Virus record (IMG/VR): IMGVR_UViG_3300009088_000027
Coordinates: 1-30,477 of that record
Source: a virus
Length of the DNA: 30,477 nt
Direction: 5' to 3' (one strand)
The position numbers and the translations under genes were made by a program. Below the pieces are notes generated by a model. That model was given only the letters and a program-made list of their open reading frames with translations, ran no database searches and was not told the DNA's origin. Positions 10,047-22,536 of the stretch are shown here, in pieces (positions within the stretch are counted from its first letter, which is position 1; each line of letters begins with the position of its first letter).

Positions 10047-11456
10047 ATGTACACAGGACATATGCCAAACTATAATGAAGATATGAGCGATGGACCATAC
10101 GGCATAACTTACTATTCATCTTCCAACAGTGACACATTAAAGAGCCAGGCGATTACCGACATGCAGGCGCTTGGCGTGACCTGGTTGCGTTATCAACTAC
10201 ATTGGACATCAATCGAAAATCCACAGAACACCTATACCTGGACTGCCCTGGACGATGCCGTATCAAAGTGCAATACCGCAGGCATAAACATCGTGTTCGT
10301 CATTCAAGGCGCGCCAGCTTGGGGACTATCAGGCTCAATACCATCAGCCACACCCAGCGCGACATTCGCCACCCAGGTGGCCACCAGGTACAACGGCAGC
10401 AATGGCCACGGACACCTCGACGCGATAGAGGTCTTCAATGAAGAGTTTGATAGTGTCGTAGGGCACACCGATGGAACCGATTATGTGGCAGTAGCAAAGG
10501 CGGTTGTGATAGCGATCAAGGCCGCAGGGTTCACGGGGAAGATCGGCGCTGCTGCGTTGTTGGGCGCAGGATCGACGAGCCACATCACGACCTGGTTGCA
10601 GAATATCTACAATGCTGGTGTGCCGCAGTTGTTTGATTATCTCAATTTTCATTACTATGTGGGGAGCGGAGTACCAGGTATCTCTGGCACAACTGGCAAC
10701 AATAGCCAGTTTCTTATCTCGTTTGATCAGTACTGGTACACAATGCTACAGGTGATAGCCAACAACAACGACGCAGGGAGACAAATATGGTGCACTGAGG
10801 TGGGTTGGCCGACGAGCACGACCGGTGGCTATGGATCTACGGCAGTAGTAACCGAGGCGCAACAAGCGGCCTATCTACAGTACTGTTTGAACTCGGCCAG
10901 GCTATCTAATTGCATGCAGAAGCTGTTCATCTATACGATGGACATTGCTACATCAAACAATGATGGTATGAGCATCACGCAAGGGCTTTCTCCCAATGAG
11001 TTTTTTCTGGCCAGCTTCTCTATGTTCCAGCAGCAGATATTGAGTTACCCGACCTGGCCGACACCATCCACATCATATAATCCTCCCATTGAAGTCTCTG
11101 CGCTGGTCGCCGATAGTTCGGTTACTCTGGCAGCACTACAGACCAGGACCATAACAGACACAGGTGTCGTGTGGCAGATATACCTCAAGGATAGGTTGGG
11201 AAAGAACGCTATAGACCTGACCAATCTTTCCTACCTTAATTTATTCATGAGAATAAAGAATATTGGTACAGGCGGAACAAACACGGGAGTAGGGACGTTC
11301 AAAGTACTCAATGCTACGCAAGGGCTAATCAGCTATCAGTGGAATGTGGATGATATAGGCGTAGTGGGGTCATACAGCATTCAAGTAAGCGCATATTTTC
11401 CCACAGGGCCAGTACATTTCAACCTGGTCTCATTAACGGTAATTACTGATTATTAA
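10047..11456 (+). CDS. Tail-associated clan GH-A glycoside hydrolase with BppU-like C-terminal domain
   Basis: A 469-aa protein. Residues 10-345 read as a (beta/alpha)8 glycosidase of clan GH-A (GH5/GH39-like): ALGVTWLRYQLHWTSIE near the start, acid/base motif EVFNEE (Glu132 after Asn131), and WCTEVGWPTS with probable nucleophile Glu251. There is no signal peptide, as expected of a virion enzyme released by lysis. Residues about 350-469 (VWQIYLKDRLGKNAIDL, then ISYQWNVDDIGVVGSYSIQV) match the layout of the BppU N-terminal baseplate domain, suggesting the enzyme is anchored on the tail and trims cell-surface polysaccharide. The exact substrate is unknown. The ribosome-binding site is weak; Met6 (10062) is an alternative start. 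Confidence 0.75.
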   Translation: MYTGHMPNYNEDMSDGPYGITYYSSSNSDTLKSQAITDMQALGVTWLRYQLHWTSIENPQNTYTWTALDDAVSKCNTAGINIVFVIQGAPAWGLSGSIPSATPSATFATQVATRYNGSNGHGHLDAIEVFNEEFDSVVGHTDGTDYVAVAKAVVIAIKAAGFTGKIGAAALLGAGSTSHITTWLQNIYNAGVPQLFDYLNFHYYVGSGVPGISGTTGNNSQFLISFDQYWYTMLQVIANNNDAGRQIWCTEVGWPTSTTGGYGSTAVVTEAQQAAYLQYCLNSARLSNCMQKLFIYTMDIATSNNDGMSITQGLSPNEFFLASFSMFQQQILSYPTWPTPSTSYNPPIEVSALVADSSVTLAALQTRTITDTGVVWQIYLKDRLGKNAIDLTNLSYLNLFMRIKNIGTGGTNTGVGTFKVLNATQGLISYQWNVDDIGVVGSYSIQVSAYFPTGPVHFNLVSLTVITDY

Positions 11457-13084: not shown

Positions 13085-13260
13085 TAAATATCTATCTATC
13101 ACCTATACACAGTCTTGTTTAATAACTATAATGAAATATGTAGGCGAAGCTTATTAGATCGATCATTGTATGCGAGCCATTCAACAGGCGGGGCGGCATG
13201 TTGCTCAGATATGTTGCCCTACCTCCTGATAATTGGGCGGATGGGAGGGTTGTAGGGAAC

Positions 13261-13725
13261 ATGGGAAAACTCTTTCATCACCAACTGCCAGATCACCAGC
13301 ACATCAACGTCAACGAGATCCACGACGAGCAGCTTACCATCGGGCAAAGAATTGCCGACCAGGTCGCCACGGTTATGGGCAGTTGGAATTTCCTCATCGG
13401 CCAGGCACTTCTGCTTACTATCTGGTTCATCATCAACTCAGTGGCATGGTTCTATCACTTCGACGCCTACCCCTACATACTTTGTAATCTCTTAATGAGC
13501 GCACAAGCAGCCTTCGCCACACCTCTGATTATGATGAGCCAGAATAGACAGGCCACAAAGGACCGGCTAACAGCCGAGAATACCTACAAGGTCGATGTGA
13601 AGTCAGAACAGGAAGTACGCGCGATCCTGGCACATATGGAGGCCCAGGACGAGGAGCTGTTGAAACAGACAAATTACCTCATAGAGCTAATTGGACATAA
13701 AAAGAAAGAGGCTATAAATGGATAG
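13261..13725 (+). CDS. DUF1003 family membrane protein
   Basis: A 154-aa protein of the DUF1003 family, recognised by IADQVATVMGSWNFLIGQ, the segment FDAYPYILCNLLMSAQAA and the hallmark PLIMMSQNRQATKDR. Two transmembrane helices (about residues 42-65 and 70-93 from this start) are followed by a soluble helical tail. I chose ATG 13261 because GGGAGGGTTGTAGGGAAC precedes it; an ATG at 13198 in the same frame would add 21 residues. The biochemical role of the family is not established. In a phage it may be a host-acquired accessory gene or act on the membrane during infection. It overlaps the next gene by 8 bp. Confidence 0.85.
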   Translation: MGKLFHHQLPDHQHINVNEIHDEQLTIGQRIADQVATVMGSWNFLIGQALLLTIWFIINSVAWFYHFDAYPYILCNLLMSAQAAFATPLIMMSQNRQATKDRLTAENTYKVDVKSEQEVRAILAHMEAQDEELLKQTNYLIELIGHKKKEAING

Positions 13726-18089: not shown

Positions 18090-18107
18090 TTTGTATGATC
18101 ATACAAA
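18090..18107. promoter_or_regulatory. 18-bp perfect palindrome upstream of the capsid genes
   Basis: TTTGTATGATCATACAAA is fully self-complementary and sits 10 bp before the very strong GAGGAGGAGG ribosome-binding site (18117-18126) of the next gene. It could be an operator or, in RNA, a short hairpin affecting initiation. Confidence 0.4.
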
Positions 18108-18133
18108 TTGACAAGTTGAGGAGGAGGATTTAC

Positions 18134-18982
18134 ATGGGGGAGTTTGATCAAATTATTGAAGCAATGCTACCAGAGCCAACACTATCACCACCGGAGCCAG
18201 TTCACCCGGTTCCACAAGGCGGCAACATTCCACAGATGAACCTGGCAGGGGTTGATGGGTATCCTTTCAACGTAGCCAGTGGCTATGCACGGCAACCTAT
18301 GCCTGATCCCGGCAAACCAGCACCATACGATCCAGTGTTAAGCGGCTCGCCGGAGTGCGCAGGATACGACATGGCCAACCCTGCACCAATGCCGCAGAAC
18401 CTGGCAGGGGTTGATGGTATGCCGACTCCAGGTTACATGGCAGATCAGCAGACAGGGACGTGGAAGCGCAATGTAGGCGGGGATTATGGCATGTCGGTTG
18501 GCGTGGATTGCACGATCAAGCCATACGATCTGACAGAGCCAGGCATCAATTATTCTATCGGTGGCGAGTTCGAGCCTGATCCGATGATGCCCGACCTGGA
18601 GGACTACAATAAGCCAATGGGCCTGGATATTCATAATCCCATCCAGACAGGCAACCTTTTCACGCCTGATCCTGTGTTAGCAGACTTGACTCAGTACGAT
18701 GTGACTGGCGGCATTGACATCATTGCACGACAGCCAACAGACCCGGACCCATCCGTACCTGACTTGCAACAGCCACAGCTTACTCAAGATGTTCATATGC
18801 AGGAGCGCCCCGGCGACATGGACGATGATGCTATCGACATCGTAAATGCAGACCCAACTCACAAACTTGATGATGGCGCATCTTACATGCAAGCATTTCT
18901 CGATCCAGATGGCATGAATAATTCCCGACGTAGAAAGTCAGTGCTGCGTGATAGCGGTCTGAAAACAGTTGGGGATGCATAA
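18134..18982 (+). CDS. Acidic Pro-rich repeat protein upstream of the prohead protease
   Basis: A 282-aa protein. ATG 18134 is chosen because GAGGAGGAGG precedes it; the frame opens at 18095 without such a site. It is strongly acidic and Pro/Asp/Met-rich with almost no predicted regular structure. NLAGVDGYP and NLAGVDGMP are one repeat pair. A second repeat, PDP-x3-PDL (or ADL) followed by Y and DI, occurs three times around residues 160-235. The C-terminus turns basic (NNSRRRKSVLRDS). Location and TAATG overlap with the protease/capsid gene suggest a co-translated head protein such as an internal, scaffold-like or surface protein. No family is recognised. Confidence 0.65.
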   Translation: MGEFDQIIEAMLPEPTLSPPEPVHPVPQGGNIPQMNLAGVDGYPFNVASGYARQPMPDPGKPAPYDPVLSGSPECAGYDMANPAPMPQNLAGVDGMPTPGYMADQQTGTWKRNVGGDYGMSVGVDCTIKPYDLTEPGINYSIGGEFEPDPMMPDLEDYNKPMGLDIHNPIQTGNLFTPDPVLADLTQYDVTGGIDIIARQPTDPDPSVPDLQQPQLTQDVHMQERPGDMDDDAIDIVNADPTHKLDDGASYMQAFLDPDGMNNSRRRKSVLRDSGLKTVGDA

Positions 18983-21429
18983 TGATACAGCCTATTCCGA
19001 TGTCCTACAACACACCCACCAGTAGCACTCAGAATATTGGCGATAGCAACGGCCAGGATATCATGGAGCAAGCCAAACAAGCCCATGAAGAGAAATGGCC
19101 GCATGATAAGCGTGTGGCCTATCACCAGGCACATCCCGAAAATTTCGCGGGTGAAGGCATGTCATTTCCTATCGAGGATGCTACTGATGTAAAGCATGCG
19201 GCGCAGCTCCACGGCCAGTCACACGATGCAGACAAGGTCAAAGCGAAGATCATCAAAATTGCCACGGAGATGAAGCTTGATCAGGCACTACCAGATGAGT
19301 GGAAGTTGACGCCTGGAGCACAGAAAACAGGGCCAGTTAAGGAGGCTCAAATACAGATTGAGCCACGTATTACTGAGTCACTGGATGCTGGCCAGGCTGG
19401 GCATGATGTAAGAGTGACGGTCATACAAGGCGGAACATCGATCAATGGCTACGCCTACGATAATGCAGCGCTCCAACAGATAACCAGAATGATCGAAGGG
19501 GCCCAGGCTTACGCCGATCATGGCAGAAGTGCAGCGGACGAGGCGACCCGATCAGTGCGCGACATCGTTGGCTTTTACCACGATGCCGCATTCGTGTCAG
19601 CCAGCGGAGCACAACCAGCAAGGGTTGATGCCACGCTGCACATCTTTGATGCAGCCGATTGGCTGTGGAAGATCATTCACGAGAGTGTGCTGCTAGGCAA
19701 GCCTAATCTAATAGGGTTGTCCATTGATATATTCGGCCAGTGGCAGCAAGAGAACAATTCAAAGAAGGTCACGAATGTAAAGCAGCTTAACAGTTGCGAC
19801 ATTGTGACCAGGCCGAGCGCAGGCGGCTCCGTCCAGCGCATATTACACGACCTGCCCTCTAACAAGAGCGAGCAACTACAAGGAGGAAACACCAGCATGG
19901 AGGAACTTAACACTACTACTACACCGCAGAGCGATCCACCGGCACAGCCGCAGATAACACAGACACCACCACCAGCGCCTGCCACTCAGCAAATACAGGA
20001 ACAGACTCAGCCATCATCAACTATGCTTGAGCAGCATACGCGCATGATGGAACAATTGCAGGGCCTGGAGGCGCAGCGCGTTGAGGTCGAGAAGTTGATG
20101 CAGCAGGCCAAGATGGGCAATGCTCAGTTGATGCTTGAACGCAAGTTGCACGAGAGCATTTTACCTGCTGCTATCAAGGGACAACTCAAGGAGCGCTTTA
20201 CTGGGCGCATCTTCGAGGAGAGCGAGCTGGATAACGAGATGATCAGCGCGCTAAACGTCATGGCGCAATTAGCCAGAGATGGCATTGTCCGAGGTCACTC
20301 CTATGAGAAAAGTGAAATCAGCGGGCAGGTTACGGAGGCCGAGAAGGTTCAAGCAGCCTTCGATAGAATGTTCGACCTGGATATCGATACCACCAAGTTG
20401 GGCAATATCAGGGGTTTTGGTGGCGTCAGAGAGGCATATCAACGGGTCACAGGCGATCCTTCTTTATATGGCGGCATCAGCAGTAATACTAGCCTCGGCA
20501 ATATTCGCGTGAGTGAGAGCGCTCCAATGGCGCGTATCACTGAGGCTGATACCACAACGGCTACTTTCTCTTACCTGCTTGGCACCAGCATGAATAAGCG
20601 CCTGCTAAAAGACTATCAGGCGTGGCCTGCTGAGTGGCAAAAATTTGTAACGATTGTTCCAATCCGCGATTTTAAACAGCAAACTCGCGTGCGGTTGGGC
20701 GCATTCGCATCGCTGTCAACCGTGGCAGAGGATAGCGCCTACACCACGCAGACGCTAACTGATAGCGCGGCTACATATGTGCCAACCAAGCGCGGCAACC
20801 TGGTTACTGTGTCACGCGAGACAATCATCAATGACGACCTGCAGAGCATCAAGCAGATCCCCACTAAGCTCGCGGTGGCGGCAGCTTACACTCTGGCCGA
20901 GTTCGTCTACGCCTTCTTCCTGAACAATCCCAACATCTATGATGGTTCGGCCCTGTTCTTGACAGGAGCGCCACACAGCAATCTTGGCACAACTGCACTA
21001 AGCAGCGCGGCGATCCAGACAGGCGTAACCGCTATGCGTGAGCAAACAAACTTTGCTAGCAAAAGGCTTGGGTTGCGCCCACGGTTCTTAATTGTTCCAC
21101 CCGAGCTAGAGTTCACGGCTATGGTGGTCACTAAGAGCGCGGGCGTGCCGGGAAGCAATAACAACGACATCAACCCGATGCTAGGGTATGTAACCCCGAT
21201 TGTGTCGCCACAGTTAACGAGCACGACACAGTGGTTCTTGAGTGCTGATCCACGTGAAATCGACACTATCGAAATTGGCTTTGTGGGTGGACAGTGTAAT
21301 CCTGCTTTATTCATTCAGGACAGTCCCCTATTAGGGCTCAACTTCTCAACTGACGCAATCTCTTATAAAATTAGGCATGAATACGGAGGTTGTGTAACAG
21401 ACTACAGAGGATTATACCGAGGTATATAG
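18982..21429 (+). CDS. Prohead protease-major capsid protein fusion
   Basis: An 815-aa protein whose ATG overlaps the preceding stop (TAATG). Residues about 135-295 resemble prohead maturation proteases: GTSINGYAYDNAALQQI, YADHGRSA with candidate catalytic His180, then KPNLIGLSIDIFGQW with candidate Ser247, and LNSCDIVTRPSAGG. Residues 306-345 are a Pro/Gln/Thr-rich linker, 340-400 a coiled coil like a capsid delta or scaffold domain, and about 520-815 an HK97-type capsid region (RLGAFASLSTVAEDSAYT, RGNLVTVSRETIINDDLQ, C-terminal YKIRHEYGGCVTDYRG). Fused protease-capsid proteins are known in tailed phages. Here the protein should cleave itself during head maturation. An internal start (19897) probably yields capsid protein alone. 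Confidence 0.85.
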   Translation: MIQPIPMSYNTPTSSTQNIGDSNGQDIMEQAKQAHEEKWPHDKRVAYHQAHPENFAGEGMSFPIEDATDVKHAAQLHGQSHDADKVKAKIIKIATEMKLDQALPDEWKLTPGAQKTGPVKEAQIQIEPRITESLDAGQAGHDVRVTVIQGGTSINGYAYDNAALQQITRMIEGAQAYADHGRSAADEATRSVRDIVGFYHDAAFVSASGAQPARVDATLHIFDAADWLWKIIHESVLLGKPNLIGLSIDIFGQWQQENNSKKVTNVKQLNSCDIVTRPSAGGSVQRILHDLPSNKSEQLQGGNTSMEELNTTTTPQSDPPAQPQITQTPPPAPATQQIQEQTQPSSTMLEQHTRMMEQLQGLEAQRVEVEKLMQQAKMGNAQLMLERKLHESILPAAIKGQLKERFTGRIFEESELDNEMISALNVMAQLARDGIVRGHSYEKSEISGQVTEAEKVQAAFDRMFDLDIDTTKLGNIRGFGGVREAYQRVTGDPSLYGGISSNTSLGNIRVSESAPMARITEADTTTATFSYLLGTSMNKRLLKDYQAWPAEWQKFVTIVPIRDFKQQTRVRLGAFASLSTVAEDSAYTTQTLTDSAATYVPTKRGNLVTVSRETIINDDLQSIKQIPTKLAVAAAYTLAEFVYAFFLNNPNIYDGSALFLTGAPHSNLGTTALSSAAIQTGVTAMREQTNFASKRLGLRPRFLIVPPELEFTAMVVTKSAGVPGSNNNDINPMLGYVTPIVSPQLTSTTQWFLSADPREIDTIEIGFVGGQCNPALFIQDSPLLGLNFSTDAISYKIRHEYGGCVTDYRGLYRGI
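19897..21429 (+). CDS. Major capsid protein from an internal in-frame start
   Basis: Inside the fusion gene, AAGGAGG (19880-19886) lies 10 nt before ATG 19897, exactly in frame (codon 306). Translation from here gives a 510-aa protein beginning MEELNTTTT, comprising the linker, coiled-coil delta-like region and complete capsid fold, without the protease. A perfect Shine-Dalgarno at the domain boundary is unlikely to be accidental. It would supply many capsid subunits per protease, comparable to the nested scaffold start in lambda C/Nu3. The capsid identity is well supported; use of the internal start is inferred. Confidence 0.65.
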   Translation: MEELNTTTTPQSDPPAQPQITQTPPPAPATQQIQEQTQPSSTMLEQHTRMMEQLQGLEAQRVEVEKLMQQAKMGNAQLMLERKLHESILPAAIKGQLKERFTGRIFEESELDNEMISALNVMAQLARDGIVRGHSYEKSEISGQVTEAEKVQAAFDRMFDLDIDTTKLGNIRGFGGVREAYQRVTGDPSLYGGISSNTSLGNIRVSESAPMARITEADTTTATFSYLLGTSMNKRLLKDYQAWPAEWQKFVTIVPIRDFKQQTRVRLGAFASLSTVAEDSAYTTQTLTDSAATYVPTKRGNLVTVSRETIINDDLQSIKQIPTKLAVAAAYTLAEFVYAFFLNNPNIYDGSALFLTGAPHSNLGTTALSSAAIQTGVTAMREQTNFASKRLGLRPRFLIVPPELEFTAMVVTKSAGVPGSNNNDINPMLGYVTPIVSPQLTSTTQWFLSADPREIDTIEIGFVGGQCNPALFIQDSPLLGLNFSTDAISYKIRHEYGGCVTDYRGLYRGI

Positions 21430-21539: not shown

Positions 21540-22382
21540 TCAGAATAGCGGAGGTTGGTCAGCTTGCTGTTTTGCAAGCTTGTTGGCAAGTCTTGTTGCC
21601 TTCTGCTTCGCTATAGACTCAGGCGTGCGTGTTTTGCCAAGGTGGGAAGCACTCAGCTTAGCAACATGCTCAGGTGCAAGCTTTCTACCACGATGGAAGG
21701 CTGCGGTTTTAGCAATAGCTTCAGGAGATCGATTTTTACCAGGCTTACCACGTTTAGCAGCACTCATCTTAGCCTTATGCTCAGTGGTAAGCTTTTTACC
21801 TGTATTAGCAGCACTTAATTTTGCACGCTGCTCAGGAGTAAGTTTTCTACCACGAAGAGAGGCTGCTCGTTTCTCTACAAGTTCAGGCGATTGCTTACCA
21901 GTTGACTTACCACGTTTAGCAGCACTCAGTTTAGCTCTTGTTTCAGGGGAACGATGTTGGCCTGTATTGGCTATACGTGCAGCCTCAGTAGCTTTAGAAA
22001 CACTAACTCTTAGTTTTGCAAGATACTCCGGTGTCCTTTCCATGCCAAGAGTGCTACCAGCCACACGGGCAATATTATATTGCGGGTTAAGCCCATCAAT
22101 ATAACGCTGCTCTACCGAAAGAAGATCTTCAACGTGCTTAACGAGATCAATAACAACAAAACAAAACTTGTCAGGTCCATAAAGGTCATAGGCACGTTGC
22201 AGATGGGAATTAACATGTTTACCTGTTCTCAAAGCACTAAGATGATCACTCTTTCGTCGAAGGAGATCCACAGACGAGCCAACATAAAAATTGCTATTGG
22301 ACATATTAACAATGGCATATATGCCAGGGGTGGAGGGAACAACATTCACTTGAGAGGTGTCGTGAGGTACAATGATATCCAT
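21540..22382 (-). CDS. GIY-YIG homing endonuclease with NUMOD3-type repeats
   Basis: A 280-aa minus-strand protein. I chose ATG 22382 because AAGGAG lies 12 nt upstream; a TTG at 22394 abuts that site and cannot use it. The GIY-YIG nuclease domain occupies residues 18-100: GIYAIVNMSNSNFYVGSS, catalytic Arg42 or Arg43 in DLLRRKSDH, and metal-binding Glu91 in SVEQRYIDGLNPQYN. Residues 105-265 contain about six NUMOD3-like units of RSPE-x-RAKLSAAKRGK type, which bind DNA as a modular array. Such enzymes are selfish elements that cleave an allele lacking them. It lies antisense between capsid and surface-protein genes, in neither of which it interrupts a reading frame. Confidence 0.9.
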   Translation of the reverse strand: MDIIVPHDTSQVNVVPSTPGIYAIVNMSNSNFYVGSSVDLLRRKSDHLSALRTGKHVNSHLQRAYDLYGPDKFCFVVIDLVKHVEDLLSVEQRYIDGLNPQYNIARVAGSTLGMERTPEYLAKLRVSVSKATEAARIANTGQHRSPETRAKLSAAKRGKSTGKQSPELVEKRAASLRGRKLTPEQRAKLSAANTGKKLTTEHKAKMSAAKRGKPGKNRSPEAIAKTAAFHRGRKLAPEHVAKLSASHLGKTRTPESIAKQKATRLANKLAKQQADQPPLF

Positions 22383-22536
22383 AGTGAGGGTCAACTCCTT
22401 ACTATCACGCTCCCGGTTGTTTCAGCAATGCGGGGGCAAAACATTATTACCTCATCAGTATACCACACATCAGGTTTAAAGCCATTATTCATGTACTAAT
22501 CTACTATAGAACAGTAGACATTTTAAGGAGGCAATA

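Follow-up and report, generated by a model that had tools for sequence, protein, structure and literature searches.

A putative nested scaffold-capsid start at the protease/capsid boundary of a fused phage head gene

In phage lambda, the protease-scaffold gene C contains the nested in-frame start of the scaffold Nu3, and both products end at a common stop codon. Herpesviruses use a similar layout, in which the protease-scaffold gene UL26 harbors the in-frame nested gene UL26.5 and the two proteins have a common C-terminus. Direct fusions of a protease to a capsid protein have been reported in Rhodobacter RcC phages (PMC8601537), in Microbacterium cluster EE and other small actinophages (PMC7302621) and in Paracoccus (PMC6536676), and a nested start is not mentioned in the passages of these papers that were examined. 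Here we analyze a fused gene of this kind in a 30,477-nt contig of a soil virus (the window). Its sequence suggests that one gene very probably gives rise to both the fusion and a shorter shell protein.

Domain organization of the fused gene

The protease-capsid fusion is encoded on the + strand (18982-21429) and comprises 815 codons. Its ATG overlaps the stop codon of the preceding ORF (18095-18982) and is preceded by a GGGGA resembling a Shine-Dalgarno (SD) sequence (18961-18984 including the ATG; dG -5.5). An N-terminal helical domain is predicted at residues ~23-108; the segment of residues ~20-112 (positions 19039-19318) that holds it is missing from some homologues, whose ORF begins near residue 112-119. 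The protease domain (residues ~139-290, 19396-19851) is specific to the long product. A profile search with the whole protein matches residues 138-290 to the head maturation protease family phrog_15531 (E=3.5e-9), and the first 305 residues alone match the same family (E=8.8e-10), which places a prohead protease domain at the N-terminus of the fusion. A Pfam search of the N-terminal part returned no match for the protease. In the homologue alignment, His180 is almost invariant and Ser247 is located within a consensus GLSID motif.

The C-terminal region (residues 522-813) constitutes an HK97-fold capsid domain. It is matched by Phage_capsid_4 (E=6.6e-45), and Foldseek searches with the predicted model identify HK97-fold capsids, including HK97 itself. 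The part following Met306 additionally matches the fused head families phrog_4523 and phrog_133. In the AlphaFold model of the fusion, which has a mean pLDDT of 65 and can be trusted only at the level of domains, a disordered linker (residues 278-355, 19813-20046, pLDDT <50) is followed by long helices (351-490) reminiscent of a scaffold or delta domain, a second disordered stretch (494-527) and the capsid. According to this model, Met306 is located in the linker that divides the protease from the scaffold-capsid unit.

Directly downstream of the capsid gene, an antisense ORF (21540-22394, - strand) resembles GIY-YIG/NUMOD3 homing endonucleases. The window also encodes a cellulase (GH5)-like protein (10047-11456, E=1.7e-6) and a DUF1003 protein (13198-13725) that adjoins the integrase region on the upstream side. 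A group I intron (Rfam RF00028, 55.6 bits) splits the capsid part of one homologue near residues 774-782 (contig L010, 3002-3211). In contigs L020, L021, L022 and L023 the homologue breaks at a single capsid position, ~residues 556-560, with unrelated sequence or the contig end beyond; in one of them the two halves lie ~27 kb apart. An Rfam search found no intron at this break.

The internal start site and its conservation

The original prediction described an AAGGAGG 10 nt before an in-frame ATG at codon 306. Direct reading of the sequence confirms this: the internal SD (19880-19886, + strand) is separated by the 10 nt AAACACCAGC from the ATG of Met306 (19897-19899), which lies 305 codons into the fusion ((19897-18982)/3 = 305). 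Counted from the last G, this gap is at the long end of the range. With a dG of -11.2, the internal site pairs more strongly with the anti-SD than the start of the fusion itself. The anti-SD used for the pairing energies is the right one, since the 16S rRNA of one host of a related prophage, a member of the Ktedonobacteria, ends in GGATCACCTCCTTTCT. Upstream pairing of dG <= -10.9 is found for 7 of the 636 ATGs on the + strand of the window and for none of the 543 on the - strand. AAGGAGG occurs six times on the + strand, twice with an ATG 4-12 nt downstream.

The nested frame (19897-21429, + strand), delimited by the ORF and the profile matches, encodes 510 residues and its product would begin with MEELNTTTTPQ. 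It has the makings of a nested in-frame head gene: an internal start, a ribosome-binding site of its own and a stop codon in common with the fusion. The start was also rightly placed exactly at the protease/capsid boundary, as residue 290 is the last one matched by the protease profile, disorder extends over 278-355, the scaffold-like helix begins at ~351 and the capsid occupies 522-813. The description of the nested product as a 510-residue capsid protein needs amendment. The frame has this length and contains the capsid, but it is not capsid alone, as the scaffold-like segment (351-490) is included.

Homologous loci were drawn from three sources: viral contigs, a single genome scan and 47 surveyed genomes of the class. 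The related prophages were found in members of the Ktedonobacteria, among them Ktedonosporobacter, Dictyobacter and Thermogemmatispora. The resulting set contains 38 non-redundant sequences from Ktedonobacteria phages and prophages that cover the linker. An in-frame, SD-preceded ATG is present in the linker of all 38, each with a dG of -5.8 or stronger (mean -8.2); sequences within a family are related, so that such counts are not independent, though the linkers are highly diverged. The 503 other in-frame ATGs in the same ORFs have a mean dG of -2.2, and a dG of -7 or better is reached by 84% of the nested sites vs 2.8% of the other ATGs, a raw comparison with a mild selection effect because the best linker ATG was picked where several exist. 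Synonymous-codon shuffling with the peptide fixed provides a conservative test. The shuffles give a mean dG of -5.6 (sd 0.33), corresponding to an observed z of -7.8.

The original prediction named loss of the internal site amid conserved flanking codons as evidence against it, and the homologues display the opposite pattern, a site kept in every sequence within an unconserved linker. Column identity amounts to 0.69 for the protease and 0.83 for the capsid, vs 0.18 in the linker (289-345) and 0.05 over residues 296-306. The distance from the protease end to the nested ATG varies from 6 to 46 residues. The codon phase of the SD differs in L016, L017, L019, the Thermogemmatispora prophages and the RcKemmy family, and also within a family. 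The shuffling result and the occurrence of the SD in several codon phases indicate selection on the RNA rather than on the peptide. More distant capsid relatives (L024-L033, 29% identical) were unusable for the site test, as their genes are unfused.

Other protease-capsid fusions and alternative explanations

Five further fusion families were gathered with the queries RcKemmy, PY223, S1, Mae-JY22 and F10. We scored the presence of an ATG with dG <= -5 in a window at the boundary and in windows of equal size from the rest of each ORF. The boundary site is present in 34/35, 54/55, 34/43, 6/7 and 14/14 members of the families, or 142/154 together, compared to 16-23% of these control windows. Including the Ktedonobacteria set, 180 of 192 fusions carry the site. 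In profiles computed at 30-residue steps the main peak coincides with the boundary, and extra peaks are confined to the ClpP domain of F10. The SD is weaker evidence in the ClpP-type families (Gifsy-2, F10), where the amino acids flanking the nested start are themselves conserved. Overall, a nested start looks close to a rule for protease-capsid fusions.

Among eight actinophages examined, six (RRH1, GMA5, Rahul, BlueFeather, Penoan and Decurro) have an SD-ATG at the boundary. SallySpecial (L427) and EricDab (L428) have no strong boundary site; they carry an SD-ATG ahead of the protease (residues 134 and 117), dividing an N-terminal hydrophobic segment from the protease-capsid part. The fusion of Lactococcus phage c2 contains AAAGGAG and an ATG at residue 131. 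In phage eb1, 99.4% identical to c2, the annotated capsid CDS (415-1467) starts at exactly the corresponding ATG, and the Pfam family PF06673 (L_lactis_ph-MCP) begins at that same ATG. The SD of the long product of c2 is strong as well, and SD strength is therefore no proof that the fusion is in short supply.

It is conceivable that only the fusion is made and that all capsid subunits arise from it by proteolysis, with one protease per subunit and a chance or vestigial SD-ATG. The frame is open from end to end, and the mature c2 capsid protein on record begins at codon 206, so that maturation would hide the N-terminus of a precursor. This explanation is improbable in view of the RNA-level selection at a site kept throughout the Ktedonobacteria set inside an otherwise unconserved linker, and of the recurrence at one position in most fusions of the other families, where a vestigial site would decay.

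Seven S1-family members (L375, L377, L378, L381, L383, L409 and L422) lack the SD but retain the linker ATG, with A/T-rich sequence upstream. The other genes on their contigs mostly have weak SDs too; the pattern resembles SD-independent initiation and may mark hosts that use it. Across 180 nested sites, we computed features expected of a start. Proline is found at position 2 of 41% of the nested starts vs 4% of other Met residues, and the RNA near the nested start is less structured than in synonymous resampling (mean z +0.77, sem 0.10). These features bear on a second, still less probable explanation, in which the SD-like sequence causes a translational pause that lets the protease fold before the capsid part and the ATG is incidental. 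While the position exactly at the domain boundary would suit a pause, an ATG 4-11 nt downstream would be superfluous for a pause, yet every Ktedonobacteria-phage homologue has one; the ATG is also retained in the SD-less members, and proline is enriched after it. Least probable of all is a conserved linker peptide, for example a site of protease cleavage or binding with a terminal Met, whose codons happen to resemble an SD: many closer homologues do read [K/Q/E]G..M, but much of the SD strength disappears when synonymous codons are shuffled under an unchanged peptide, the same RNA motif appears in other codon phases and residues 296-306 are nearly devoid of column identity.

Internal initiation at Met306 is thus very likely real, and conservation, shuffling, the other families and the start-like features concur that the internal start is kept by selection. 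In the split relatives Epona and Dulem virus 34, protease and scaffold-capsid are separate genes, and the scaffold-capsid gene starts at the same place with a strong ribosome-binding site, which suggests that the nested site has been retained in the fusions. Three other candidates for such split members were rejected: L172 and L047 are frameshifted copies instead of true two-gene versions, and the match of L266 is limited to the capsid side.

Proposed mechanism and comparison with known systems

We propose, with high confidence, that the gene consists of two overlapping in-frame cistrons, encoding an 815-residue fusion and a 510-residue scaffold-capsid protein that would co-assemble. Ribosomes initiating at 18982 would produce the protease-scaffold-capsid fusion, while those recruited by the SD at 19880-19886 to the ATG at 19897 would produce the scaffold-capsid protein, the counterpart of HK97 gp5 together with its delta domain. 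The bulk of the shell would be built from this short product, and the fusion would enter as a minority subunit that carries the protease covalently into the prohead. The protease, either released or within the prohead, would then remove the scaffold and itself to yield mature capsid subunits. The internal site is best viewed as the ribosome-binding site of a formerly separate capsid gene, retained after the intervening stop codon was lost. Initiation, product ratio, co-assembly and cleavage are modeled here on the biology of HK97 and lambda, and SD strength does not settle the ratio. We infer that the gene yields both proteins and that the arrangement serves stoichiometry.

While a protease-capsid fusion would seem to impose one protease per shell subunit, the conserved nested start would resolve this difficulty in a simple way. 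It predicts a specific second product for many genes annotated as a single 'major capsid and protease fusion' protein, and offers an evolutionary route in which a stop codon is lost and the downstream ribosome-binding site is kept. Laboratory phages, for instance Lactococcus c2, and F10-type prophages thereby offer a direct test of the stoichiometry question. It is likely, with somewhat less assurance than for the locus itself, that a nested scaffold-capsid start is near-universal in the protease-capsid fusions of tailed phages, in at least five host phyla and with differing protease and capsid families, that it determines how many proteases each prohead contains and that these fusions never ceased being two genes. 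We found no description of a nested start in fused capsid genes in the part of the literature that was searched, and its novelty is provisional.

The ClpP-scaffold-capsid fusions of Gifsy-2, Fels-1, mEp043 and F10 have the same tripartite order as the window gene, a related capsid (phrog_133, Phage_capsid_4) and an SD-ATG at the protease end (residue 221 in Gifsy-2). Their protease is of the ClpP type, whereas that of the window matches the head maturation protease family phrog_15531. CLP_protease matches the N-terminal part of Gifsy-2 (E=2.7e-39) but not that of the window, which falls outside the ClpP subfamily. The Rhodobacter RcC-cluster, Bordetella PY223 and Stenotrophomonas S1-type fusions also join a prohead protease to a capsid with an SD-ATG at the boundary; they are ~20% identical to the window protein over its whole length, and Peptidase_S78 is detected in RcKemmy and PY223, unlike in the window. 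The major capsid genes of Lactococcus c2 (l5) and eb1 likewise join a protease to a capsid with an SD-ATG at the boundary, but have a different capsid family (L_lactis_ph-MCP), a shorter scaffold segment and a Bacillota host. The small actinophages (RRH1, Gordonia, Arthrobacter) likewise fuse protease, scaffold and capsid, mostly with the boundary SD-ATG, and some have an additional N-terminal membrane segment.

Lambda C/Nu3 is similar to the window in its in-frame nested start, with a long product that contains the protease and a short one that is a structural head component. In lambda, however, the nested product consists solely of scaffold, with a separate gene for the capsid protein E, whereas the nested product of the window includes the major capsid protein. 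Herpesvirus UL26.5 also differs from the window, being scaffold only and expressed from its own transcript. HK97 gp5, with its scaffold domain and HK97-fold capsid, corresponds by fold match to the nested product; in HK97 the protease (gp4) and the delta-capsid protein (gp5) are encoded by separate genes, while in the window they are fused and overlapping.
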